Shown piece after piece: positions 15,603 through 42,641 of a DNA stretch of 64,000 nt. The translations under genes and the position numbers were made by a program. This DNA is from Monosiga brevicollis MX1 (Eukaryota > Opisthokonta > Choanoflagellata > Craspedida > Salpingoecidae). A model generated the notes under the pieces. The model had not been told where the DNA came from. It worked only from the letters and a program-made list of their open reading frames with translations, and ran no database searches. Numbering within the stretch: the stretch's first letter is position 1; every line of letters starts with the position of its first letter. The stretch is from assembly GCF_000002865.3 (NCBI RefSeq), contig NW_001865048.1:852787-916786 (forward strand), in the 5' to 3' direction.

Positions 15603-17081
15603 ATGTCGATGCTCCTGCGTTACGCGGCGGGTGCCACCAAGCCCTCTGTGGCGGTGCGCGCCTGCACTGGTGCCGTTCGCCACTATGGTGGCCTCGCGGA
15701 CGACGACCGTGTTTTCCAGAACCTGTACGGTCGCCACGACTGGGGCCTCAAGGGTGCTCTCAAGCGCGTACGTCCTGTCCTGGATCGTGCTGGTCCCTCA
15801 GGGGGTGTGGTTTTTGTTGTCAGGGGCTGGTTGGGTTGACCTCACGTTTCCCCGTTGCTCTGCTTTTTCTGCCGAGCAGGGTACCTGGTACAAGACAAAG
15901 AACATTGTTGAAGCTGGCTCCGACTTTATTCTGGACGAGGTCAAGAAGTCAGGTCTCCGTGGTCGTGGCGGTGCTGGTTTCCCCTCAGGCCTCAAGTGGT
16001 CTTTCATGAACAAGCCCAGCGACGGCAGGTCGGTCCCTCTTTTGCGCATGTTGTACCCATGGTGAATACCCGACCCGCGAGTCTGACTCTCTCCCCCTTT
16101 TTTTTTCTGCCATGGACTGGCGGGTCTACAGGCCAAAGTATCTCGTTGTCAATGCAGATGAGGGCGAGCCCGGTACCTGCAAGGATCGTGAGATTATGCG
16201 TCACGACCCCCACACGCTGCTGGAGGGCTGCCTGGTGGCCGGTCGTGCCATGGGCGCCCAAGCCGCCTACATTTACATTCGTGGCGAGTTTTTCCAGGAG
16301 GCATCCAACCTTCAGGTTGCCATCAATGAAGCTTATGACAAGGGTCTCATTGGCAAGAACGCTTGCGGTTCAGGCTATGACTTTGACATCTTCCTTTTCC
16401 GCGGCGCCGGTGCTTACATTTGCGGCGAGGAGACGGCCTTGATCGAGTCGATCGAGGGCAAGACGGGCAAGCCCCGCCTCAAACCTCCATTCCCGGCTGA
16501 TGTCGGTCTCTTTGGTTGCCCCACCACTGTCGCCAACGTCGAGACTGTGGCCGTGGCCCCCACCATCTGCCGTCGCGGTGGCGATTGGTTCGCCAGCTTT
16601 GGTCGTGAGCGCAACAGCGGTACCAAGCTCTTTGCCATCTCGGGTAATGTCAACAAGCCCTGCGTCGTCGAGGAGGAGATGTCCATCTCCCTGCGCGAGC
16701 TTTTGGAGAAGCACTGCGGCGGTGTGACTGGTGGTTGGGACAACCTGCTGGGTGTCATTCCCGGTGGCTCTTCCGTCCCCGTCCTGCCCAAGCACATTTG
16801 CGATGATGTCATGATGGATTTCGATGCCCTTGTCGCTGAGAAGTCGGGTCTCGGTACTGCCGCTGTCATTGTCATGGACAAGAGCCAGGACATTATCGAC
16901 TGCATTGCTCGTCTTTCGGATTTCTACGTGCACGAGTCGTGTGGCCAGGTGCGTTTGCGTTTTGAAACCCAAGACTTGATTCAACTATGAACTTGCTCTG
17001 TTTGGTTGAGCTTTAAACTCCATGCCGGGTGTACCGCGCCCACTCACGTCCTTGTTATTGCTTTCTCTTTTGTGGCTTGTT

Positions 17082-17114
<33 letters not shown>

Positions 17115-17397
17115 TTTTCCTCTCCCCATCTTCTAGTGCACACCTTGCCGTGAGGGCACAACTTGGTTGTCCAAGGTGATGCGCCGCTTTGTGAGTGGCG
17201 ACGCCGATAAGGAGGAGATTGACATGCTGTACGAGCTGACGCGCCAGATTGAGGGTCACACCATCTGTGCCCTTGGCGATGCCGCCGCCTGGCCCGTGCA
17301 AGGCCTGATTCGCCACTTCCGCCCAGAGATTGAGGCCCGCATTGACGCCTACAACCAGAACAAGGCAGCCGCCATTCTGGATGCAGCCACCAACTAG
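15603..17397 (+). CDS. NDUFV1: NADH:ubiquinone oxidoreductase 51 kDa subunit, mitochondrial complex I (4 exons)
   Basis: Catalytic flavoprotein of complex I: it binds NADH and FMN and carries iron-sulfur cluster N3. Exons are 15603-15767, 15880-16028, 16132-16948 and 17137-17397, all in phase. The N-terminus ([10 protein letters not shown], then [13 protein letters not shown]) looks like a mitochondrial targeting peptide. Family signatures are clear: [20 protein letters not shown] (FMN/NADH site), [37 protein letters not shown], and the cluster ligands ESCGQCTPCREG split across the last intron, with the fourth cysteine in [13 protein letters not shown]. Length, about 463 residues, is normal for the family. 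The last intron has a poly-T run before its acceptor. A second downstream ATG is possible as a start but would remove part of the presequence. Confidence 0.97.
17083..17113. repeat. Poly-T run in the last NDUFV1 intron
   Basis: An almost pure T run of about 31 bases about 25 bases before the exon 4 acceptor. It extends the polypyrimidine tract and is a likely slippage site. Confidence 0.9.
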
Positions 17398-19330
17398 AGC
17401 GGCACCTACCTCTTTCTGGCATTGAGCCTTGAACGTTGGCATGCCCATGCTGCGCTCACGAACGGGCAATGTCGCCCTCGTCAAAACAGCAGCTGGGTCA
17501 AGGCGAGCTCTATAACGTGTTTCCTTTTTTTCTTTGCGGGCCCGTGCCTTTGCTCGACCTTGCATCTTATGGACGCTCCTCTTTCCTCGGCTCTGTGCAC
17601 ATCACACCTTACTTTTTCTAATGTGGCCGCTTGACCCTGTACTTGATCCTTTGTTCCTTTCCTCCTTTTTGTTTGCTTGCATCGTTGCCACTGCGTGCCT
17701 CGATACCTTCCCGAGCTTTTGTCCCAGCTGCGGCAGAGTGTAATGATGTTGTGTTTGCCTCTGCTCATTTTGTGTATGGTGTTATCTCGTGTGGGTGGGC
17801 ACCTGCCCCAATGCTCTCCTTGGGTTGGATGAAGGGGAGCAGTCGCCTTAGCTACTTGTTCTTGTTCCTTCTTGGTCTCTCCCCCCACGCTGGTGCGTTG
17901 GACAGAGCAGTGCCTTTTACACATGAAGTGATCGACAACAATTTACCAACAATTCCGACGCCTTCCTTTCCGATAGCTGCCCGCGCCCTCAACGCTGGCA
18001 CACACCGCACAACGAACACAAAGGTTGTCAGAAACGCCATCAACATCATCTTCACACATCTGTTGTTACCTTTCTTCTTCTTCTTTGATAACACCACCAA
18101 GTCTTTCAATTTCTCTCTGAGCGCCGCTCAAACCGTTCTGCGCCCAAACACCATCGCGCAGCGGTCTAGGAGGTGGACTGGTGTGGCTGGCAGGGCCGGG
18201 GATCAGGATGCTGGAATTTTAGATCCGTGACAGCGTTTCGGCATCCTTGACTTGTTGTCTTTGACATGTGAGTACACACAATGCCGCCCCCGCCCGCACG
18301 GCTGACGCTCTCGCGCAAGAATAAGGCGCGCAAAGAGCATGGGCGACCCGCACACTCGTCCGGCCTTCAACCCATTCGCGCCAGCCAAGAACCTGAGCAT
18401 ATTCCCAAGCGCGCCAAGCATGCTACTCGAGAGCCTGCTGCGGCTCTGTCGCAGGTCGCAGCCACGACACATGTTCGAGATGCCTCTCCACCCCCAACGC
18501 GCTTCTGGACCGGTTCGCCTCGATCCCCTCGGTCCCCGCGGGCTTCCTGGGTCGCCCACTCGCCTGCTACAAGCAAGCGGCAACCCCGCACGCCGCCCCA
18601 CAACCCCTCAGCCTCCCCGGGGCTCGCCAAACCACCGCCCGAGCCGGCAAGCATCGATGCCACTCGCCGCATTGAAGCCACCTTCTGGTTCTTGCTGGAT
18701 GACTACAACCATCGCCATCAGAAACCCCTTGCGCACACGCCCAACACTGTTTGAGCAGAATGTCTGACCGCCTGCCATCTCGACTTTGATGTGGCCCATC
18801 TGGGTGTTAAAGCTCCCATTTCTTCTTCTTTTTTTTTTCCTTTTTTTCTTGTAACTTGGTTCCTTTGATTTTGATAATTCTCGATGCTGCGCGTCCTTTC
18901 CCGCCGACCGCCTGCGGTCAAACCTCACAGTCAGCTGTGCTTTTGTAAATTGACATCCAGGCATGCCAATTTCCAGACTCTACTGCATCAGGCCACCCCA
19001 CGAATCATCCGCTTGAAACACCTTTGCTGCTTTGCTGAACACCTTCTGATTCACGATTCAAGAAAAAAAAGAAAACGGTCTCAAACACATGCATGCGTGC
19101 TTGCACGTTGAGGTTGTTGGTTGCGGGGTTGACACTGTGCGCGCGCGGTGTTGGCGCATTTGCACGTCTTGCCTCTCTTTTTGCTGGCCAGCCAGGTGCT
19201 GTGCACACCGCGGGGCGCACGGTTGATCCGCTGCCTTCAAGGCAGGCACGGGCAATATCCAAACACGGGCGCGCCGCGCGAAGCTCTGCTCAACAACGAT
19301 CACAAAGGGCCTGTAGCACACCTTGAGATC
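17398..19330. other. Intergenic region between NDUFV1 and the sulfotransferase
   Basis: About 1.9 kb. It begins with the NDUFV1 3' untranslated region, rich in T and C. One arginine/proline-rich frame at 18281-18754 is listed separately. The last 300 bases probably form the sulfotransferase leader. A frame at 17631-18230 is low-complexity and not credible. Confidence 0.5.
18281..18754 (+). CDS. Possible small basic proline/serine-rich protein (157 residues)
   Basis: A single open frame from an ATG. The protein is rich in Pro, Arg, Ser and Ala with an SPRSPRSPR run, and ends with a more ordered segment (RRIEATFWFLLDDYNH). I recognise no family. Overlapping frames are open on the other strand, as is common in GC-rich DNA, so it may not be a gene. 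If real it would be a nuclear or disordered protein by composition only. Confidence 0.35.
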   Translation: MPPPPARLTLSRKNKARKEHGRPAHSSGLQPIRASQEPEHIPKRAKHATREPAAALSQVAATTHVRDASPPPTRFWTGSPRSPRSPRASWVAHSPATSKRQPRTPPHNPSASPGLAKPPPEPASIDATRRIEATFWFLLDDYNHRHQKPLAHTPNTV

Positions 19331-21201
19331 ATGGCAGGCGCGATGCGGCATTCGCGCCTGCTACTCATTGGCCTGCTGGTCGGGGGCTCCATTCTGCTCA
19401 ACCTCGTATTCATTTGGCGCAGCATGCACAGCGGAACCGTAGACCCCAGGCTTACTGCCGTGCATTTACCTCACCCACGACAGGCTCCCGAGAACCCCGC
19501 TGCGGTGCGTCCTGATGAGCGCCTGCCACGTGAAGAGCGCCAGCCCTACCGACCAGTCCCCGCCCCCGCCCCGCCACCCCTGCCAGCGAAAGATGCGCAA
19601 CTCGATAAAGGTGAAAATTCTCCCCACGGCGACGACGACCTGATACGCGATGCGCCTCTTGAAGCACAACCCAAAGCCGGCTCAGACCTCTTGCCCCTTC
19701 CTTCAACGACCCCGACGAGCCGGCCAGCGCGAGCCCAGTCAACACCGGCGCAAACCCACCGCAGCGCTGCAGCCCAACGAGCAGTCCTGCCCACGCAACG
19801 CCAGGATACTCTGGCCAACCTTCGCACCGACCGGGATCGGGGGCATGCTCTCATCGACCAACGTGATGCCTTGGGCCGCTGTACTGGGCCAGCTCGGCGA
19901 GTCGTCTACGTCAAAACGCACAAGACTGGCAGCTCCACGCTCACCAATATATTTCATCGCTATGCGGAAAAGCATCACCTGCGCACGGTCTTGCCCAAAG
20001 GCAACACCTTCCTCGGATGGCCTCGCAGTGCGGGCATCCCCACCTCCTATGTCGAGCTTCCCAACACCCGTGACGGCTACGACATGTTTTGCAGCGCCCA
20101 CACGCGCTATCACCGCGAGTATATCTCACAGATCGTGCCCGATGCTCACTATGTGACAATTTTGCGCGAGCCTACCTCACACTTCAAATCTTCCTGGCGC
20201 TATTGGGATGTTCCGGGGCACATCAAGCGCGTCTCCAACCTTGATGTCACATGGCAAAAATTTCTTGACGACCCAGACTACTGGTTCACCAAGGGCCTCA
20301 AGGGTGATCGTGACCTGCTGCACAACAGCGTGGCCTTTGACTTTGGTTTTGCTCACAACTACAGTCAAGCCGACGCCGATGACTTGCGTGCGCACTTGGC
20401 AACCTTTAGCTTGGTGCTCATTACAGAGTACATGGATGAGTCCCTAGTCTTACTCAAACGCAAGCTCTGTTGGGACCTGGACGACGTGGTTTACTTTGCG
20501 CTCAAAGTTAGCCGACATCGGCCACGCGAGCCCTTAGACCCACTATTGCGACAAAAAATCTTGGCCCTCAACTGGGTCGACGCGCAGCTCTACCAGCACT
20601 TTAACCACAGCTTGTGGCAACAAATTGCGGCTGAGAAGGACTTTGAGGCCGAAGTTGCCGAGTTTCGCCGTCGCAAAGATCTGCTGTCAGTGCAGTGCGC
20701 TGACACGGCCCCCCTCGACGAAGAGGCGCACCGCTACGCGCTCATGGAGCAGAAGCTAACAGACCCCGAGCGACAATGCCACCTGGCTCAGGTTTGAATC
20801 TCTCCCCACGACGTGCTTGATGACTGCCCCTCTTTGCACATGCTCTAAGCCCCGCTGCCCGCCTGCACTGTGCCATGCCCGCTGCCTGCAGATGGACTCG
20901 GTGGCCTTTGTGCGCTACCTGAAGCATGCGTCCGGTGCCCCAGACCCCGAGTGCTGGAACCCGGGCAACTGGCGCAAGCGGCAGGTCGTCTACATCAAGA
21001 CCCACAAAACAGGCAGCTCAACGCTCACGAATATCTTCCATCGCGTCGCCTACCGCAACAAGGCGCGGCCCGTCCTGCCGATCAATAATCTTTATCTCGG
21101 TAAGGGGCAGTGTGCAAATGCACTTGTCCAACCTCAATTCTTGCAGACCACCCCTGGCACGGCTTTTGACAGCTACCCCGCTGAACGGCCCCCGGCTTGT
21201 C

Positions 21202-21242
<41 letters not shown>

Positions 21243-23443
21243 TTTTTGGTAGGATACCCGGACACGGCTACACTCATGAGCTCATACGTGAAGCTGCGCC
21301 CTTTCAAGGGCCGTGACGTCTATGACATGCTCGTGTCAGCCCATGCCGTCTACAATCGACCAAAGATGGAGCTCTTGGTGCCCCAAGCCACCTACGTGAC
21401 CATCCTGCGCAACCCCGTGACCCACTTTATGTCCTCTTGGAAGTACTGGCACATTCAAGACCACATCATGCGTGATCTACACGTAAACGTCACGATGAGC
21501 CAATTTCTTGCACAGCCTATGGATTATCTCCCGCGCATGAATCTGTTGGATCGGGCCTTGACTCACAACTCCATGTCCTTTGATCTGGGCATCTCATCCG
21601 AGCCCTCGCAAGATCAAGTCTTCAATTTGGTTCGTGTGTGCTTGGCTTGCAGCTTGATGCCCACAGCGCTGGCGGTTCTGCCGAGGAGTGGAAGGTGCCT
21701 TGCTCAGCCGTCGTCTATGTACCTTGACCGCTGCCTGATTGGCCTGGGCGATGATAGATGCAAGACCTGCAACAGCGATTTGGGCTTGTTCTGATCACAG
21801 AGTACTTTGATGAGAGTTTGGTGCTGATGCGGCGCATGCTGTGCTGGGATCGACGCGACATTGTCTACATGTCACTCAAGGTTTGTCCGGTGGCATTGGC
21901 AGAAATGAATCTTCTCTTGGGCCAAACCCGACCAGCACCAAGCATGGGAAAGCGGGCTCCTGCTGTATTGTCTCCCATTGACCATAGGAAGAAGCCTTAC
22001 GCTCACTCTGCTGTCCTCTCATTGAACCAGGTGAGCAAGACGAGCAAGCGCGGCAGCTATGCCGTGGACCCGAAGCTTCAAGAACAGATCACCCAGCTTA
22101 ATTGGGCCGACGTGAAATTGTATGATGCCATGAACCGCTCGCTTTGGCGGCATATTGACCGCGCCATTGGCTTTCAAGAGGAGCTCGAGTGGCTGCAAAA
22201 GGAAAAACTGAAGATGTACGATACCTGCAAGCAGTTTATCGGCTGGGGCGACGACAAGCACCGCAAGGCTTTGTTGGAGACGGAGATGGGCGAAGACGAG
22301 GAGGACTGCCATCTCCTCATGATGGACTCACCGGGGTTTGTCAAGGTGTTAAAGGAGGTGTGGGGCCGCAAGGACCCCGAATGTCACAACCAGGGCACCT
22401 CGAAGCACACCGTCGTCCACATCCCGACGGGCAACTGGGCCGATGACCTATTTGCCAACTGCGTGCTGCGCCATGCACTCCTGTCAGGCTTGGCTGTGGC
22501 CATTCCAGCCGAGGGGCACGCGTTTGCTACTGCCAGTGATGCCACCGCAGCCGCGGTGCGGGCGTCCATGACACGGGTGAGCGAGGCGCGGTTTGTGGCT
22601 GTGGCCGGCTTTCCGCTCACAACCAATACCAAGGCGTTGCGAGGGCTGTACGACGAAGCCTATGTCTTTCCGGTCATGGGGCACCCCGTGACCACGTTTG
22701 TCGCCACATGGCAGCGCCTCCGCATTCCAGAGCTGTTGCGCACGGCCACGGGGCAATCCGTGGATTTAAACGTATTTCTGCGCAACGCTCCCGACCTGGT
22801 GGGCCGCCTCCCAGCTCCGGCGCGTGCTGAACTGATAAATCCTCTCAATGCACAATGGGCCGCCTATGGGACGACTCCCACCAAGCGAGCATGGGCCATC
22901 ATGGGACAGGTGAATAAAGTGTTGATTGCAGAACATTTGGACGAGTCGCTGGTTTTTTTCCGGCGCGCCGTGTGCTGGCCCATGGAGGACGTCTTGTATG
23001 CCGCAATTCCGACTGCAGCCCGCGGTCTTGAAGGACCGAGCGGGCAAGGGTCCAGCACAACATTGGGACTGACACAGGAGCAGGAGCAGGCCTTGTCTGC
23101 CTTGCTACAGGATGATCTACAACTGTACTCTGCGCTGAATGAAAGCTTATGGCGCGGCATCAGTCGCGAGATTTCCTTTGATGCCGAGGTCAAAGCGCTC
23201 CGTGAGCTGCGCACGCGCACCATCGAGGAATGTGCACGGTTTGCGACTGCGCCCGCGGCAGTCGCCCCAGGAGAAGCAGCCACCACACAAATATTAGGCA
23301 CTGACGAGGTGGCTGAGTTGCGGCGCATCTTGCAAAATCCCAAAACTTCCCTGCACGAAAGACGGTGCCGCTTGTTGGGCCTATCGCCCGCCCAAATGGC
23401 CCAAATTGTTGGCAGTGCCGGCATGCTCCGCCCTTCGTTCTGA
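19331..23443 (+). CDS. Galactose 3-O-sulfotransferase-like protein with three tandem domains, third degenerate (5 exons, about 1193 residues)
   Basis: Golgi type II membrane enzyme of the galactosylceramide sulfotransferase (Gal3ST) family, which transfers sulfate from PAPS to galactose residues. Exons: 19331-20791, 20892-21099, 21253-21629, 21758-21880, 22031-23443; phases agree. The start gives MAGAMRHSRLLLIGLLVGG, a signal anchor, then a long proline-rich stem. Domain 1 has the 5'-phosphosulfate loop VYVKTHKTGSSTLTNIFHR and the 3'-phosphate motif ILREPTSHFKSSWRYW. Domain 2 has VYIKTHKTGSSTLTNIFHR and ILRNPVTHFMSSWKYW. Domain 3 has VVHIPTGNWADD and VMGHPVTTFVATW at the same places, so it has lost both PAPS-binding motifs but keeps EHLDESLVFFRRAVCW. 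The linkers repeat too: CHLAQMDSVAFVRYLK between domains 1 and 2, and CHLLMMDSPGFVKVLK between 2 and 3, which argues for one continuous protein. The intron at 21881-22030 has no stop and is a multiple of three, so retention is possible. Confidence 0.88.
21208..21240. repeat. Poly-T run in the second sulfotransferase intron
   Basis: A T run of about 30 bases just before the exon 3 acceptor, like the one in the last NDUFV1 intron. Confidence 0.9.
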
Positions 23444-24303
23444 GAACGCACCCATCGACCGAGTATTGCTCTCTTCTTCTTCTTCTTCCTTCTTTTCTTT
23501 TTTTTGGTTTTGATGTGCGCAACTATGCGTCCTTGGTCTTGTTGCTCTTTCCAAGTGAACGGAAAGCGCCGCGATGCCCTGCTGCGTTGAATGCAGGTGT
23601 CGCAATACGCCCAAGTTTATCTTGCTCTTTAAAAGGCCATCGCCTCAGTCGGCTCCCTTCTTACAACAAAACTGACCCCACACACACACGCGCGCACACA
23701 TGTGTATGCACACGCAGGACTCGAATTGGCCGCCTGCAGCCGAGCTGACATAAACTATGCAAGAGTCGATCGTCGCCAGCTACCTGCCAAGCTTTGGGTA
23801 AATGTTGTAAACAATTGGCAATCGCAGTCGGCACGAGCCAATTTTCAGGGCAGGTGAGATGCCCGCGCAGCCGACAAGCGATGCGGCGTGGACAGCTGTC
23901 CAAGCGGCTGCGGAGGGAGGCAAGCTACCTGGCAACGGCCCACTCACCCCACAACGGGATCGGAATATCATGAGTTGAAGCGATCGCGCCGGTCATTCAT
24001 GTCATCCTTTTCCCCCCGACGTGTCAGCTCCCTGTCCTTGGGCCATCAAGAGCCCGTGCCTTCTCAATCTGAGATCTCTCTCCTTCCCTCCCTCCCTCAC
24101 TCGCTCACTCACACACACACTCGCACACACACACACTCTCTCTCTCTTTCCTTTCCTATGGCTCCTCTTAAACTGCAAGGCAATAGAGCTGGCCCGTTCA
24201 ACGGCCCGGCGGTTCAGAAGGAAGGGTGTCAGGAATTCACAAGCAGGTCAAAACTTGCAGCGGGCAGGCGAAAACGCACGACGCATCCGAAGCTCGTCCA
24301 CTG

Positions 24304-24385
<82 letters not shown>

Positions 24386-25165
24386 ACGTACGTTCCATGT
24401 CCCGAAGGAGGGGACAGGGGGTAGAGAAGAAGGGTGTCCTCTCAACGCCATGTCCCCAACACCACGGCAAAAAGTCAACTGATACTCGGTCACCTCGCAA
24501 GCAGCCGCGTTGCTGGGCAGTCAACTTTAAAAATGTGTCCGCTCATCCTTTTCCGGGGTTTGGCTGCCCAGTGACGGCTGATCCCACCGTTACATCGAGG
24601 TCATCACCTCTAAAAGTCGGTCGTCGCTTTCCCAGGGGTGCATGAGTGTGCGTGTGAGAACGTGATTGAGGCTCTTGACAGTGCAGCCGCAAGGGGTGCG
24701 TCAGCGGACGAAACGAGCATTTGCTTTGCAGTTGGCTTGGCCTTTGGCTCGATCGACTGTGACAGGGGTGAGTGCATCCGAGTGAGGTGTGTGAGCAAGA
24801 GGAACCGGGCGCCGTTGGATTGCAGCAGTCGACCACCATTGCGTGGACGCTGACGCCGCTCGCCAGCTGCCCCGATGAAAGAGGCCCGGAGTGAGAGGTC
24901 TTGCATCCGAAATCCACCGCAGCGCGCCCCTTGCCAGAGGAAAGACAGTGAGGCGACTGGCGTGATGCTGCATTTTCTTTGAGCTTGGGTGGCCCTTCTT
25001 GAGCATAGGCCATCAACGCGTCTGCGGCCCCATTGTCCTGCCATTGCCCGTGCGCTCATTGTCGCTTTCACTTCTAGTCGCTGCCTTTGTCCCGACCTGC
25101 TGGCACGACCATCAACATCATTGGTGTTCCTGCCGTGTGCATAAATACATCCGATTACACACACC
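23444..25165. other. Intergenic region with CA microsatellites
   Basis: About 1.7 kb between two plus-strand genes. It has TC and CA tracts at about 24080-24150 and a long CA run. Minus-strand frames at 24543-25221 are open but have no recognisable content. No RNA gene was recognised. Confidence 0.5.
24305..24383. repeat. CA dinucleotide microsatellite
   Basis: An unbroken CA run of about 79 bases, ending in a short GTAC repeat. Confidence 0.95.
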
Positions 25166-26868
25166 ATGGCTCGTACTCTGAGTCTACTCTTGGTGTGCTT
25201 GGCCCTGGCGGTGCCCAGCATGGCCGATCGTGACCTACTGGAAGAGAACCGTTTTCATGGCCGTTGCATTCGGGCTATTCATGCAGCGGACCACGGGTAT
25301 GATTTTATGCGTCACGAGTGGCCACCGTCTTATCCCCGCGCCCACCGTGCGAGCGAGGCGCTGGTCATCGTCTCATCGTCATTGCCCATGGCTAGGCACT
25401 ACGTGTCCACGGGTCATGCATCGGGCATCGACATGGCCGCCACCATCTGCCGAGGCGACGTCGACTGCCAGCACATTGCCCCATGCGAATCTGGGGATTG
25501 CATGCAGGTACGCACCAATTGGCTGCTCCAAGATCACGCCCTCGCTCTCTACTCGCGCCGTACGCACGGCATGGGTGTCCACGTTCTTTTCCCCCTCCCC
25601 CTATTCATGATGACATTGCCATCTTGAAAAAAAAATCCCAAAAATCGCATCTGTAGCTGCATCGCTGCGAGTCCAACACCAATGCCGTCTGTGCGCTGTA
25701 TGTCCCGGTGCACTGCACCGAGGATGTGGTGAGCGCGCCCCAGTCTGCCGTGCAAAGCAGCTCCGTCCTGAGCTTGGCCAACAAGGCCGGCAGTAGTGTC
25801 GCTCTGGGCGATCGCTTCTTCTTTGTGGGCGCCCCCAAGGCGGACAGCGCCTACGACAAGACTGGCCTCGTCTATGCCGCCCACATTTCTTCAAACGAGG
25901 CCATTCTTCAGGAGCTCGTGGGCGATCAACCCGGCAAAAAGGACAACTTTGGTGCCGCGGTAGCCACCTTTGGGACCACCCTCATGGTTGGTGCACCGGG
26001 TGCCGACACCAGCATCAAGAAAGGTGGCAAAGTCGAGGTCTTCACCATGGTTCGCAACGCGTGGGAGCGTACCCAGGTTTTGGCCCCTGCCGGCTTGGCA
26101 CAGAACGATGATTTTGGCGCCAGCGTTGCGCTCGGCAACGGCGTAGCCATTGTCGGTGCCCCACGCGACTCAAGCATCAAGGTCAAGGCCGGTGCCGCCT
26201 ACGTATACGCTGCCGACCGGGAGGGCCAATGGTATCTCATTGACAAGCTGCAAGTGAGCCGACCCAAGGAGAAGGGACGCTGCGGCATGAGCGTGGCCAT
26301 CTCCGGCCTGACAGCCGTTGTTGGCTGCTCTGGCAAAAAGGAACGTGCCTTTGTCTTTGCCCTTCGCGATGGCACTTTTACGGAACTCACACAGATCAAA
26401 CAAGGCGCCAACAACTTTGGCCAGGCCGTGGCCATCGCCTCAAATGAGCTGGCGTACGGTCCTCTGCGCACGGCCGTGCTCATTGGTGCTCCTGATCAGA
26501 AGGACGGCCGTGCTTTCATGTACGAACTGCAGTCAGATGGACAAGCTGAGCGCACGGAAAAGTTCAAGCCCAAGTCTGATGCCAACCCCAACCGCTTTGG
26601 TGCCAGTGTGGCTCTGAGCCCGGGCGGCCGCTACTCGGTCATTGGAGCCCCGGGCGAGTCGGGTACTTCTGATATTGGGCGTGTGTTTGCCTACGAGCGT
26701 CAACGCGAGTGGGAGCTGGTCCTTGAAGCCGTGGCCCCTGACGTGAGCGCTGAGGGCGACCAGTTGGGCACGGCTGTTGATATTCGGGCCACTTCCAGCG
26801 GCTTTCTCATCATGGCCAGCGCTCCCAAGGCGCTCAATGACGGTGCTGTCACCTTCATTTCCAGCTAA
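25166..26868 (+). CDS. Secreted FG-GAP repeat protein, integrin-alpha-like propeller (2 exons, about 517 residues)
   Basis: Exons 25166-25507 and 25657-26868 join in phase. The protein begins with a signal peptide (MARTLSLLLVCLALAVPSMA), then a short cysteine-rich segment (CRGDVDCQHIAPC, CMQLHRC), then repeated FG-GAP blades: GSSVALGDRFFFVGAPKAD, FGAAVATFGTTLMVGAPGAD, FGASVALGNGVAIVGAPRD, CGMSVAISGLTAVVGCSG, FGQAVAIASNELAYG, FGASVALSPGGRYSVIGAPG and LGTAVDIRATSSGF, about seven in all. Seven blades fit one complete propeller like the integrin alpha head. There is no transmembrane helix or calf region, so it is a secreted propeller and not an integrin. CRGD occurs in the cysteine-rich part, but its meaning is unknown. 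The ligand is unknown. Confidence 0.85.
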
Positions 26869-37418: not shown

Positions 37419-40400
37419 CTAAAGAAGCGCATCCAACTCGCTTTCACTGTCAAAGTCATCTTGCAACAGGGCCTCCATGGCCATGTCCACTTCCAGCTTG
37501 AGTGCAGATGGGGCCATATGTGGTGGCACGTCATGCTTGGCACGCTTGGGCGCCGGCGTAGCCTCGGCGCTGGTGGCCACTTCCATGGTTGGGACACCCG
37601 GGGCTGCATCGGGCGGCGTCGCCTCGTGCGCCGGCAGCTTTGGCTGGTTTGCCGCAACCGCTGGCCTAGACTGCTCGGCTGCATCCTCCTCATCCGACTC
37701 GAGGACCGCTTTGTTGCGGCGCGAGCGAGGCGCAATTGGCGAATCTCCGTCCGTGTCACTGGCGCGCTCGGCCTTGGGGCTCTCCTGTACCTTGGCGGAC
37801 GCGGGCCCGATAGGACCATGGGGCAGTGGCGAGGCAGGCGCTTTGTGGTTTTTGATGGAGCTGGTGGTGGCCTCCTCAGCGGCCTCAGCTTCGCGTAGAG
37901 CCTCCCAGTCAGCATCCTCGCCATCGGCCATAACCTGGGCCTCGGCCTCGGCCTCGGCGCGTGCCTCGTCCTCAATGCCGCCCTGCAGCAGCGCCATAAA
38001 GGGCTCTGGTTCATGAATGGCCTTTGCAAAGGCAAAAAATGCAATCACACGTGACCACAGTTTATTGGTTCGCAACAGCCGGCGGTTTCCTACGGATGTA
38101 CGAACGGGGGGAGCGGGAGGAGGGGGAAGAGGTCGGGTATACGATGAGCCACAGCAACCTTCACAAACGGCAAGTGGGCGAAAACCACAAAGACACCGTC
38201 TCCCTGTGGGAACCACCGCCTCGGAAGACACACAACACAAGCAAATATGTGAGGAAGGTCGTCGTTCTGGCTTACCAACGAGAATCAAGTGATTCTTCGC
38301 TCGGGTGAGTGCCACGTTGACGCGTTGCTCCGAGTCGATAAAGCCGACTTGCTGTGTTCGGACGCACGAGACGATGACGACCTGCTTCTCACCGCCCTGA
38401 AAGGCGTCCACGGTGCTCACCTGCACCTGTTTGGCTTGCGCCTTGCGCTTGAGACGCTCCTCGATGATCTCAGCCTGTGCCCGATAGAGACAAATCACGC
38501 CAACCTCTTCGGGTTCGACGTGATGATCCAGTAAAAAGCTGACAAGCTGAACCACAAAGCCAGCTTCGGCCTCGTTGATGTAGCTCACATCGGCGTGCCG
38601 CCGCTCTTCCCCGCGCGCTACGTCACAAAAGCTCAGTGGAGGCAGCGGAGGTGCTAGCGTGGGCCGGTCCACTGCTGCCACGCCGTCGCGGAGGCGCGAT
38701 TGGTAGAACAAGCGGTTTGTAACCGCCGAAATTGCCGGGTGGCAGCGATACTGCGTGCGTAGCATGATGGGCTCCGTCCCCATGGACATGAGGCGATCAA
38801 AGAGGGTCTGCTCAAGACCTTTGGTGCCAGCAGACTCGGCGCCCGTGACCGTGGGACTCAACTGCTTGGGGTCACCCACCAACAACAAGAGGCGACATCG
38901 AAACTTGGCGGCCGGCAGCAGCGCATTGGGCTCGGTCATTTGACAGGCCTCATCAAGAATAATGATCGGGAAGCTGAGGTGGTCTAGGCACGGGAAGGCG
39001 GTGGCGGCGCAAGTAACGCCTACGAGGCGAGCATCGGCCAAACGCTCACGATTGGCACCCTCCTTGAGTGACTCGATGCTGCGACGCAGTGTATGCTTGA
39101 CGCCATCGTCCACTTCTTGGGCGTATAGCTTCTTGAGCTCGCGCAGCTCTTGTTTGTCGCCGCTAGCGCTGCCATGGGTCGAGTAGGGCCGCACGGGGGC
39201 GGAGATCTTCTTGGCCGAACCCACGCGAACAAAGTCCTCGTAGCCCAGCTTAACCAGGGCCTCGAGGATGCGATCTACGGCCACGTTGGTCGTGCTTGAC
39301 ACGAGCATGCGCCAAAAGGCGTCCCGAGACTGTCGCCCAGCGCCCACACATGCCCACACATGCCGAACCAGTCGGAACCCGGGAAAAAAAAAACGGGCGG
39401 TATTTGAAGCATGAGAGGCGGTGTTTGAAGCATGAGAGATGGGCAAGAGGGGGGACCTCAGACCAGGAGCCGGCAGCAACTTCACGGCTTCCCTAGCATG
39501 AGGGTGGCTTGGCATTGATGGCGCGTACCTTGGTGGCGGCACGTCCGCCCTCATCAAAAACAGCCGATACAAACATGATAAGGACGGCCACGAGAAAGGA
39601 CTTGCCCGCCCCGTAGACGCCGTGTACGAGGCGCACAGTAGGCGGGGCCTGATTGGCCTCGGAATCGTCCATGGTGGGCAGATCTCGTGCCATTTGCCAC
39701 AGGACGGCTTGCTGATCCTCGTTGAGCCTAAGCGACGAGACGTGAAACAAGCAAAGGGTTCAAAGCGGGAAGCGACGAGCGCGACGAGCGCGACGAGCGC
39801 TTCGAGGAGAAGTTGGCCGGTGCTGCTGGCAGCTGGGACGTGAGACACACCGATAGCGATTGCAAAAGTCGCTTGCCAGCGTCTCTAGGCGCTGTCGCGT
39901 CAAGAGCAACTGTGGCGCTCGGATCGTGCGCGGATTGAAGGTGGGTCTCGGACCCAGCAAGGCCGGGAGAATGGGCAGCTGGCGTGGATCCACAAAATGC
40001 TCGAGGTTCTTCATACACAGCGACTCGGTGCCCGCGTTAAACGCATGGATGGCATAGACGGTGGCTATGATGCATCAGAGCACGACAGGATGAGACACGT
40101 GCCTCTGACGCACACCTTTATTTTGTTTTGAAGGAAGAAAAAAACCCTCTTAAGCAGGGCAAGAAGCGAGCGGTGGATCACTAGCAGCCCTCCATACGCA
40201 CCTGACGGGTCCCATTCACGATGGCGATAGCCCGAGTGTGGAATTATCTCCAGCTCGTTGTCTTTGTTGGGTCCAAAGTACGAGCTGATGGCGACAAAAG
40301 TCTCCGCTGGACCAAACGCGAGGCTGCGGCTGACGACCCACAGGTCATCTGCAAACCCATCCGTTTAACAACATGAGCACGCCATGCCCATCCATGCGCC

Positions 40401-42641
40401 AGGCGGCCACCATACAACAGGTGAACAAAGGATGCAGTGGACGATAGGGCACAAACCACGACTATATGTTTTGTGGTGGTCTTTGCGACCCAGCGTCACG
40501 TAAAGAGCACCAGCGCGACGAGCGCCCTGGTCTGGACGACTGAAGCGGCTTGGGCCTAGGCTGCACTCGGCGTGTAAGCGAACGCCGTACCCACGCATGG
40601 CCACCTCAAGTTGCTGTAGATTCCCAGATCCCAATGTCACCCAAGACACAACGGCGTGCGTGAGACAAGGCCACGGCAGCGCAGCACGATAGAGCAGCTA
40701 AAACACAGACCGAGCCACTGCGGATGGTTGTTTTCTTCGGTCCGCCACGGCGCGCATTGCCATGTTTGCCCTGATTGTCCGTACCAAACCGAGACAGGAT
40801 GAGTGAGCGTGAGTGAGGGAGCGAGTGAGGGAGTGAGTGAGGGAGTGAAGCCATGGCAGGGGCGCGAGTGAAGCAATGGCAGGGGCTGGGTTTGGAGCAT
40901 ACCTCTTCATCGACCCACAAAAAAAAGCCACACCCGTCGGCCCTAGCATATGATCAAGAGCCGCGCTTGCCATCAATGAGCACGAAGCGAGAAGTGAGAG
41001 GAACAACGAGTGTGCGCGGCTACCAACCTGGACTTTGGGCAGCTGTAAAACATGCGGCCCTTGTTGGCTCCTTCCTTCTTGACGGCCCGGAGGACGGTGC
41101 GGCCGTGTTTGCAACTAGGGTTGCTGGCGTTTGGGTCACCGGAGCGACAGCCGGGCGCATAGTCTTGAAGGTCAAGAAAGCTCAGTCCGCGATGGTACTC
41201 GATGGCCACATCCCGCAGCTGGATGTTCAGCTAAAAGAAAACATAAAAATCAACAAAACGCATCCAGACAAGCTTTAGCACGCGCAGAAACACCAAAGCA
41301 GGAGCAGATCGGGCCGGGATGCGACAACGCGACTATGAACCAGCCCGAGGCCAAAAAAAGCCGAGGCCAAAGAAGCATGGGCACACCTGCTCAATCAAGG
41401 CGTTGGTCAGGGTGCGTCGGTACTCCAGGACTGAGGAGAAGCACGGCGGGATGACGACTTGACGCTGTTCGGGGGTCCCGTTCACCTCGGCGGCGGTCAT
41501 GAAATGCAGGCTCAACAAGTCTGTCTGGGCCCCCGGGTCGGCCGTTGGGGGTGGTACAAAGCTGGGCGATGTTGATGGCAAGGCGGTGGATGGGACGACC
41601 GCGGGCGTGAGCGAGGGTGTAACCGCAGTCACAGTCGAGGGTTGCTGCTGATGTTGCTGGTGTAGCTGCTGCTCTTGAAGGCGCTGACGGTAGGCTTGGC
41701 GCCACGCGCGACGGTCCACCGGCGCTTGGGTACTTGGTCCATCGGAGGCAGGGGCAGGGGCAGGGGCAGGGGCAGGTGTAGGTAAAGTTGTTGGTACAGG
41801 TGTGCGTGTGGATGACAAAGAGCCGGGGGTTGGTTGGGCAGTCGCGTGGGGCGCCGGCGCCGTGTTGGAGGGCCCCGCAGCGGGGATGGCCGGACGGGCG
41901 AGGCCCGTGGTACGGCGGGGGCGAGCACCCAGACCGACGCCCAACCGACGTGGCTGAAGGGCTTGGCTCTGCGCCAGGGCGCGTTGAGAGCTTTGTAGGG
42001 CCCGGGCGATGATGTCCCCGGCACTACCAGCTTCATCGCCGGTGGCGAGCGGCATGGCGCCACCCGTTGAGAAGACAACGTCGCCCGGGGGCAAGGCCTG
42101 CGTAGTGGGACGGCCAACCCCATCATCTAATTGTGGAGGGCGTTCCTTGAGTGGCGGTCGATAGGCGGGACGTGTAAATGCATTGGAGGGCGTCGCGCCC
42201 GAGCCAGCCCCATTGGCCGGGGCCAATCCCGACACTCGCTTGATACGCGGTCGGGTCATGGCACTGCTTGTACCACCGGCGTGGTGTGGTCTGGCGGCAA
42301 CCGGCTCCGCAGTGCCAGCGGAATGTTCGAGACAAACGTCCACGTAGCAGCGAAAGCCAGGAAAGTCGAGGTCTTGATCAGCCTCGACGGGGGCGGCGGT
42401 CCGCAAAGTATCAAGGACTTCGCCGGAGCTGGAGAGCAACATAAGTTCGCCCGAGCCGTTGTCGCGTAAAGTGCCATCCTGATACTTGGGCTTTTTCTTG
42501 TGCTTTTGGTGTGTATAAGTGACCTAGTGAGCGGAAGCAGACGGCCATGAGGCGTGCAAGCGCCAAGCTGCAAAAGGGAATGACGTGTCTCGTGAGCCGC
42601 TTGAAGCGGATCACAACGAGCCGAACCTGCCACTTGGTCAT
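37419..42641 (-). CDS. ZGRF1: ZGRF1 orthologue: DUF2439, GRF zinc finger and UPF1-like SF1 helicase (10 exons, 1278 residues)
   Basis: DNA helicase; human ZGRF1 is tied to replication-fork and recombinational repair, and the role here is inferred. Exons, in transcript order: 42627-42641, 41387-42523, 41028-41230, 40903-40942, 40457-40613, 40202-40348, 39851-40064, 39529-39727, 38276-39329, 37419-38089; all phases agree. The five-codon first exon (MTKWQ) joins VTYTHQKHKKKPKYQDG, which matches the human N-terminal VLYTHQKMKKSKVWQDG (DUF2439). A GRF zinc finger follows (CKHGRTVLRAVKKEG, GRMFYSC, then CGFFLWVDEE across an intron). The helicase has Walker A HGVYGAGKS, LVSSTTNVAVDR, Walker B LDEACQMTEP, VGDPKQLSPTV, RTQYRCHPAIS, STVDAFQGGEKQVVIVSCVR and NVALTRAKNHL. 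The C-terminus ends acidic after a nuclear-signal-like PKRAKHD. The middle of exon 2 is proline/alanine-rich and probably disordered. Confidence 0.95.

Follow-up and report, generated by a model that had tools for sequence, protein, structure and literature searches.

The vertebrate Gal3ST enzymes, GAL3ST1-4, are known with one catalytic domain each, which follows an anchor and a stem. An active and an inactive domain can occur in a single chain, as in the kinase/pseudokinase pair of JAK. Here, a gene of the Gal3ST family (PF06990) is described from the choanoflagellate Monosiga brevicollis MX1. It lies on the forward strand at 19331-23443 of the window, that is, the whole stretch of 64,000 nucleotides that was analysed (contig NW_001865048.1, positions 852,787 to 916,786). 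All positions are window positions unless a locus label (L009-L012) or a contig label is given.

The product resembles GAL3ST1-4 in its family membership, its anchor and stem, and the motifs for 3'-phosphoadenosine 5'-phosphosulfate (PAPS), which are found in its first two domains. It differs in that the chain holds two intact domains, D1 and D2, and one degenerate domain, D3. The arrangement is also comparable to the JAK pair in that an active domain and its inactive copy share one chain, although the fold is unrelated. Taken together, the sequence indicates that the protein probably combines two catalytic domains with an old, inactive partner, rather than three tandem catalysts. Among the papers listed for open-licence PubMed Central, none described a sulfotransferase in which catalytic domains are repeated in tandem or an inactive copy is built in. 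The phrase "three sulfotransferase domains", in an excerpt of PMC11812014, denotes three Pfam families in different proteins. In excerpts of a choanoflagellate gene-family paper, a sulfotransferase is named once, the heparan-sulfate 6-O-sulfotransferase (PMC6040629).

Domains and donor-site motifs

When the coordinates of a first-pass annotation of this DNA were re-spliced, its 1193-residue model was reproduced, with an open frame of 1193 codons plus stop, five exons and four GT..AG introns. That annotation had also assigned the protein to the Gal3ST family and placed one signal anchor and a stem ahead of three homologous domains, and hydropathy, PF06990 and Smith-Waterman comparison all agree. 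The whole protein matches PF06990 in three stretches (7.7e-126, 420.7 bits), with D1 at 214.6, D2 at 173.5 and D3, a partial match, at 52.3 bits, each above the curated cut-off of 27 bits. Searched alone, D2 matches at 9e-51 and D3 at 5.6e-14, the latter covering just profile positions 238-339 of 402. Smith-Waterman scores, with z values from 100 shuffles, are 699 for D1-D2 (45.9% identity, z 131), 173 for D1-D3 (23.3%, z 37) and 231 for D2-D3 (23.6%, z 46). At the level of the sequence, the observed gene, its location and the three-domain homology are real. The layout departs from the usual one, with one catalytic domain per chain, in having three domains with motifs intact in two. A PDB sequence search with exon 1 gave no relative at E up to 1.

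Donor-site motifs were compared in an alignment of nine Gal3ST-type domains from the Monosiga brevicollis MX1 genome. According to excerpts of PMC11625862, the conserved PAPS-site residues are the lysine and glycine of the 5'-phosphosulfate-binding (PSB) loop and the serine of the 3'-phosphate-binding (PB) helix, and the catalytic base of sulfotransferases is His or Glu. Four domains are intact: D1 and D2 of the window gene, and the N-terminal domain of each of two paralogous genes on contigs C51 and C30 (C51a and C30a). In these, the letters KTHKTGSST, SAH and LR.P....SSW are found without exception (4/4). The PAPS loop of D1 is VKTHKTGSST (residues 194-203; 19910..19939, +) and its 3'-phosphate site is ILREPTSHFKSSW (residues 277-289; 20159..20197, +). 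In D2, these are IKTHKTGSST (20994..21023, +) and ILRNPVTHFMSSW (21402..21440, +), and all four sites are intact in the motif alignment. The SAH histidine, we infer, would be the catalytic base in the Gal3ST family.

The corresponding letters in D3 are PTGNWADDL, GFP and MGHP....ATW. Here, the PAPS-loop remnant IPTGNWADDL (residues 854-863; 22421..22450, +) has lost the Lys and has Asp-Asp in place of Ser-Ser, and the 3'-phosphate-site remnant VMGHPVTTFVATW (residues 938-950; 22673..22711, +) has lost the Arg and Ser. The core motif VLIAEHLDESLVFFRRAVCW (residues 1020-1039; 22919..22978, +) is retained. Mean identity to the four intact domains is 49.6% over the 29 positions of the core motif, 25.0% in the PSB block and 21.2% in the PB block. 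Judged by the loop Lys and Gly and the PB-helix Ser, D1 and D2 carry a complete PAPS site, whereas D3 (PTGNWADDL, MGHPVTTFVATW) does not. D3 is most likely a pseudo-sulfotransferase because it lacks the PAPS-loop (PSB) Lys, the SAH His, and the PB Arg and Ser of the 3'-phosphate site; it is homologous to an enzyme but lacks residues for catalysis and donor binding, as is characteristic of a pseudoenzyme domain. PAPS binding by D3 is not to be expected, and sulfate transfer would be expected at no more than two sites because the PAPS-binding residues of D3 are missing. The idea of three equivalent domains is not supported, given D3.

Paralogs and the history of D3

The architecture does not stand alone: two-domain relatives are present in the same genome (39.47 Mb, 57 contigs). 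Searches gave at least 11 matches to the PF06990 profile, at least 15 to D1, at least 10 to exon 5 and at least 7 to D3 alone. These fall in the window gene and in four other loci, from each of which 8-9.5 kb was extracted. Two of the loci, C51 (L009) and C30 (L012), each have a gene with a hydrophobic start, one intact domain, a junction of the MDS/LDS type and a degenerate second domain. They share with the window gene the anchor, the intact domain, the junction and the degenerate C-terminal domain, and differ from it in having one intact domain instead of two. The 19-residue hydropathy of the start is 1.85 in C51, 2.39 in C30 and 2.61 in the window gene, and C51a and C30a are 48.1% and 43.8% identical to D1, respectively. 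A further locus, L010 on contig C56, appears to be a single-domain gene.

The fourth locus, L011, is also on C56. It has a frame of 1329 codons (L011:1005-4991, +) whose N-terminus includes a segment that looks hydrophobic by eye. The frame matches a Fringe-type glycosyltransferase (PF02434, 7.7e-11) and also contains a Gal3ST-like domain (PF06990, 1.6e-11). This Gal3ST-like domain is partly degenerate: HKTG of the loop is kept, and the PB Arg and Ser are gone. The frame possibly encodes a glycosyltransferase/pseudo-sulfotransferase fusion. Elsewhere, an exon-wise genome search with PF03567, a second sulfotransferase family, gave four matches on four different contigs and no sign of tandem domains. 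Single-query searches with D1, which detect close relatives only, gave six pattern matches in viral contigs and 42 in prokaryote genome contigs, with no relatives among either.

The degenerate C-terminal domains D3, C51b and C30b are recognised by a hidden Markov model (HMM) of the four intact domains at 8.6e-27, 1.2e-8 and 8.2e-35, respectively, the best of 1500 shuffles being 2.4. Conversely, when the HMM is built from the three degenerate domains, all four intact domains are recovered, with values from 4.6e-43 to 6.8e-29 against 0.018 for the best shuffle. C30b, a hand-spliced draft, gives a full-length PF06990 match by itself (1.8e-18). The PSB Lys, SAH His and PB Ser are lost in 3/3 of the C-terminal domains versus 0/4 of the intact domains. 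The PB Arg is lost in two of the three and kept in the C30b draft, where it stands at an assumed splice junction. Acidic residues replace the loop Ser-Ser in all three, as DD in D3, DE in C51b and DD in C30b.

In a tree of the nine domains, D3, C51b and C30b are set apart from the rest with support of 89/96; with C51b removed, as the worst long branch, D3 and C30b group together at 93/94. Three approximately unbiased (AU) tests in all were made on the tree without C51b, with p values uncorrected and long branches in the tree. A clade of D1+D2+D3 costs 14.2 log units (p-AU 0.023), one of D1+D2 costs 6.8 (p-AU 0.152) and one of D1+C51a costs 0.36 (p-AU 0.406). A private clade of D1+D2+D3 is disfavoured by these values. 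D3 is probably not a recent private copy, because the C51 and C30 genes share the layout and that clade is disfavoured; most likely, it is older than the split of the window, C51 and C30 genes. The earlier proposal that all three domains arose by tandem duplication in this gene is not supported. A duplication of D1 and D2 inside the window gene is possible. When only intact domains are used, rooted on C56S and C56F, the pairing of D2 with C30a has support of 86/88; the D1 branch is zero and the C56F branch very long. By eye, two introns of D2 and C30a are near each other (approximately one and four codons apart, in the same phase) and none is identical, so no claim is based on them.

Several observations weigh against this account. 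The exon structures of C51 and C30 are hand-spliced drafts, and C51b alone has a non-significant PF06990 match (E 0.15). The branches of the degenerate domains are the longest or close to it, and long branches meet in both trees, such that their grouping may be long-branch attraction. In a count of shared derived residues by identity, the degenerate trio has five columns and ranks third of 35 trios, tied with one mixed trio (best trio, seven columns); by residue class, it ranks third to sixth of 35, again with five columns, the best being a mixed trio with seven. This count is compatible with a single origin of the degenerate domains and not decisive. Finally, AlphaFold models of D1 and D3, made with the window's own exons as alignment, had mean pLDDT (predicted local distance difference test) scores of 43.8 and 44.1, too poor to use.

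The open gene model, the homology, the residue losses and the shared layout are read directly from the DNA. From family knowledge and these data, we infer the splicing of intron 1 and the location, activity, acceptor, role of D3 and order of events that follow. With good though not full confidence, we favour one gene with two sulfate-transferring Gal3ST domains and an old, non-catalytic D3, descended from an active-inactive ancestor. The product would be a type II membrane protein of the Golgi that uses PAPS. D1 and D2 would each probably move sulfate from PAPS to a galactose-type acceptor, and they may act on the same acceptor or on two different ones. D3, which has retained the family core but neither the residues that bind PAPS nor the likely catalytic base, is most likely non-catalytic and could bind the acceptor glycan or stabilise the chain. 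The layout would stem from an older enzyme with an active domain followed by an inactive one, which is still present in the two paralogs, and the window gene would be that layout plus a second active domain.

Junctions and gene model

Continuity of D2 with D3 needs no splicing, because the end of D2 and the whole of D3 share exon 5 (22031..23443, +). This exon, which includes the junction CHLLMMDSPGF (within 22301-22354) and the stop, is an uninterrupted frame of 470 codons that would be stop-free by chance at approximately 7e-8, given the base composition. Continuity of D1 with D2 depends on the predicted intron 1 (20792..20891, +; 100 nt, phase 0), which is supported by frame and junction homology. 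It separates exon 1 (19331..20791, +), which carries the ATG, the signal anchor, the Pro-rich stem and D1 through its C-terminal CHLAQ, from exon 2 (20892..21099, +), which carries the junction segment MDSVAFVRYLK and the D2 PAPS loop. Removal of intron 1 (GTTTGA..CTGCAG) keeps D1 and D2 in frame. The spliced D1-D2 segment, RQCHLAQ/MDSVAFVRYLK..., is identical to the unspliced D2-D3 junction at 16/30 positions (3 of the 7 positions on the exon 1 side and 13 of the 23 on the exon 2 side), whereas 10000 shuffles gave 1.6 identities on average and never more than 8. It also matches the C51a-C51b junction at 15/30 and the C30a-C30b junction at 12/30. The linkers CHLAQMDSVAF and CHLLMMDSPGF are repeats, as had been noted from the sequence. 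The idea that the single-domain C56 protein also ends in this junction segment was dropped, as its C-terminal tail has 1/27 ungapped identity with D1-D2.

The window gene is probably one continuous protein, as the first-pass annotation had it: the D2-D3 half of that claim stands on a single exon, and the D1-D2 half is probable by way of predicted intron 1. The main challenge comes from a model of two adjacent genes, which we regard as unlikely though deserving of weight. In it, gene A would be exon 1 and encode a one-domain Gal3ST that stops at the TGA in "intron 1", and gene B would be exons 2-5, encode an active and an inactive domain, and start at the 20892 ATG or in an unseen upstream exon. 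The splice site itself lends this model some support, as the donor GTTTGA is weak versus consensus, the second codon of the intron is an in-frame TGA, and unspliced exon 1 ends in CHLAQV with its own stop two codons past CHLAQ. Further, an ATG opens exon 2, D2+D3 alone has its domains in the same order as the C30 and C51 genes, and the rooted tree of intact domains pairs D2 with C30a and not with D1. Yet gene B would have no signal anchor, whereas the draft first exons of C51 and C30 start with one, and gene A would stop in the middle of a junction segment that is continuous in D2-D3, C51 and C30. The gap between A and B would be only 100 nt, and the GT..CTGCAG splice gives an in-frame join. 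There is no AATAAA in 18383-22222, a weak point given that 0.72 would be expected by chance. A scan of 20700-21000 for bacterial-type promoters and terminators, which is ill-suited to a eukaryote, found none.

In the one-gene model, the anchor, stem and D1 all lie in exon 1, and D2 is spread across exons 2-5. Hydropathy over 19 residues peaks, for the whole protein, in the signal anchor (residues 9-29; 19355..19417, +), with 2.61 starting at residue 10, and the anchor has the character of a type II anchor by hydropathy only. The best such value past residue 60 is 1.68, leaving a single strongly hydrophobic, N-terminal segment. The stem (residues 34-180) has 24 Pro per 147 residues. Predicted intron 2 (21100..21252, +; 153 nt, phase 1) has a poly-T run inside and is followed by exon 3 (21253..21629, +), the middle part of D2 including its 3'-phosphate site. 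Predicted intron 3 (21630..21757, +; GTTCGT..TGATAG, 128 nt, phase 0) precedes exon 4 (21758..21880, +) with the D2 core motif VLITEYFDESLVLMRRMLCW. Predicted intron 4 (21881..22030, +; 150 nt, phase 0) has a splice point that agrees with the D1 alignment. Intron 4 has no in-frame stops; if retained, it would add 50 residues inside D2 with the frame unbroken.

Role of D3 and surrounding loci

If D3 is not a catalyst, it could be functionless sequence that is decaying behind D1 and D2. Its strong divergence, long branch and Ala-rich stretches fit this explanation, which we nevertheless hold to be quite improbable. Against it stand the 470 stop-free codons of exon 5 and the fact that two diverged paralogs have a corresponding domain in the same position. 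GC by codon position 1/2/3 also counts against it, at 0.599/0.378/0.682 in D1, 0.547/0.349/0.734 in D2 and 0.637/0.492/0.674 in D3. The second position is low and the third high in each; D3 resembles D1 and D2 in this, with a higher second position and a weaker contrast. About as improbable is a catalytic D3 that has an unusual donor site or uses some donor besides PAPS, as the kept core motif (DESLV..RR..CW, 49.6% mean identity) and the uninterrupted frame are set against the loss of the PSB Lys, PB Arg, PB Ser and SAH His, the low identity of the PSB and PB blocks, and the absence of PSB Lys, PB Ser and SAH His from C51b and C30b as well.

The preferred reading, an old non-catalytic D3 beside two active domains, is in line with published statements. 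In excerpts of PMC12274613, inactive enzymes and pseudoenzymes are said to be able to recognise carbohydrate epitopes, and according to excerpts of PMC5106787, non-catalytic functions can occur in sulfotransferases as in other enzyme classes. Sulfation of two sites or binding at several points, both raised in the first-pass annotation, may apply; given the degenerate D3, multipoint binding would be more plausible than three reactions.

Around the gene, a frame resembling the Complex I 51-kDa subunit (Complex1_51K with SLBB) lies upstream at 16010-16990 (+). Downstream, frames at 25145-26868 contain FG-GAP_2 repeats (PF14312, 1.2e-28) and start, by eye, like a signal peptide; they probably encode a beta-propeller protein that is secreted or on the surface. 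At 37419-39884 (-) and 41333-42523 (-), there are Superfamily 1 helicase domains (AAA_12, AAA_11), and a weak ZGRF1-like N-terminal match, below cut-off, lies near them on the same strand; together, these are possibly one ZGRF1-like gene. Rfam gave no matches at gathering scores in 17000-26000. Elsewhere in the genome, a nitrile hydratase alpha gene at C44:400563-401258 is in two pieces (profile 6-98 and 98-184), 93 bases apart. It resembles the published intron-bearing Monosiga gene, whose alpha subunit has a 96-bp intron according to excerpts of PMC2603476, and so agrees with M. brevicollis as the source without proving it. A Sec1 exon, tried as another species marker, matched Vps45 chains best and was uninformative.

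More broadly, and as a tentative idea that we doubt more than we believe, the Gal3ST fold may have been made a lasting non-catalytic module in choanoflagellates, in at least three genes plus the Fringe-linked domain. By binding the acceptor glycan, it would give a processive or site-selective enzyme, with two active sites in the window gene acting on the bound chain. Choanoflagellates are the sister group of animals, and sulfated glycans already matter there; according to excerpts of PMC11625862, choanoflagellates can be induced to swarm by digesting chondroitin sulfate. If the proposed reading is true, this gene would be a natural test of a dead sulfotransferase domain as a glycan-binding or regulatory module.

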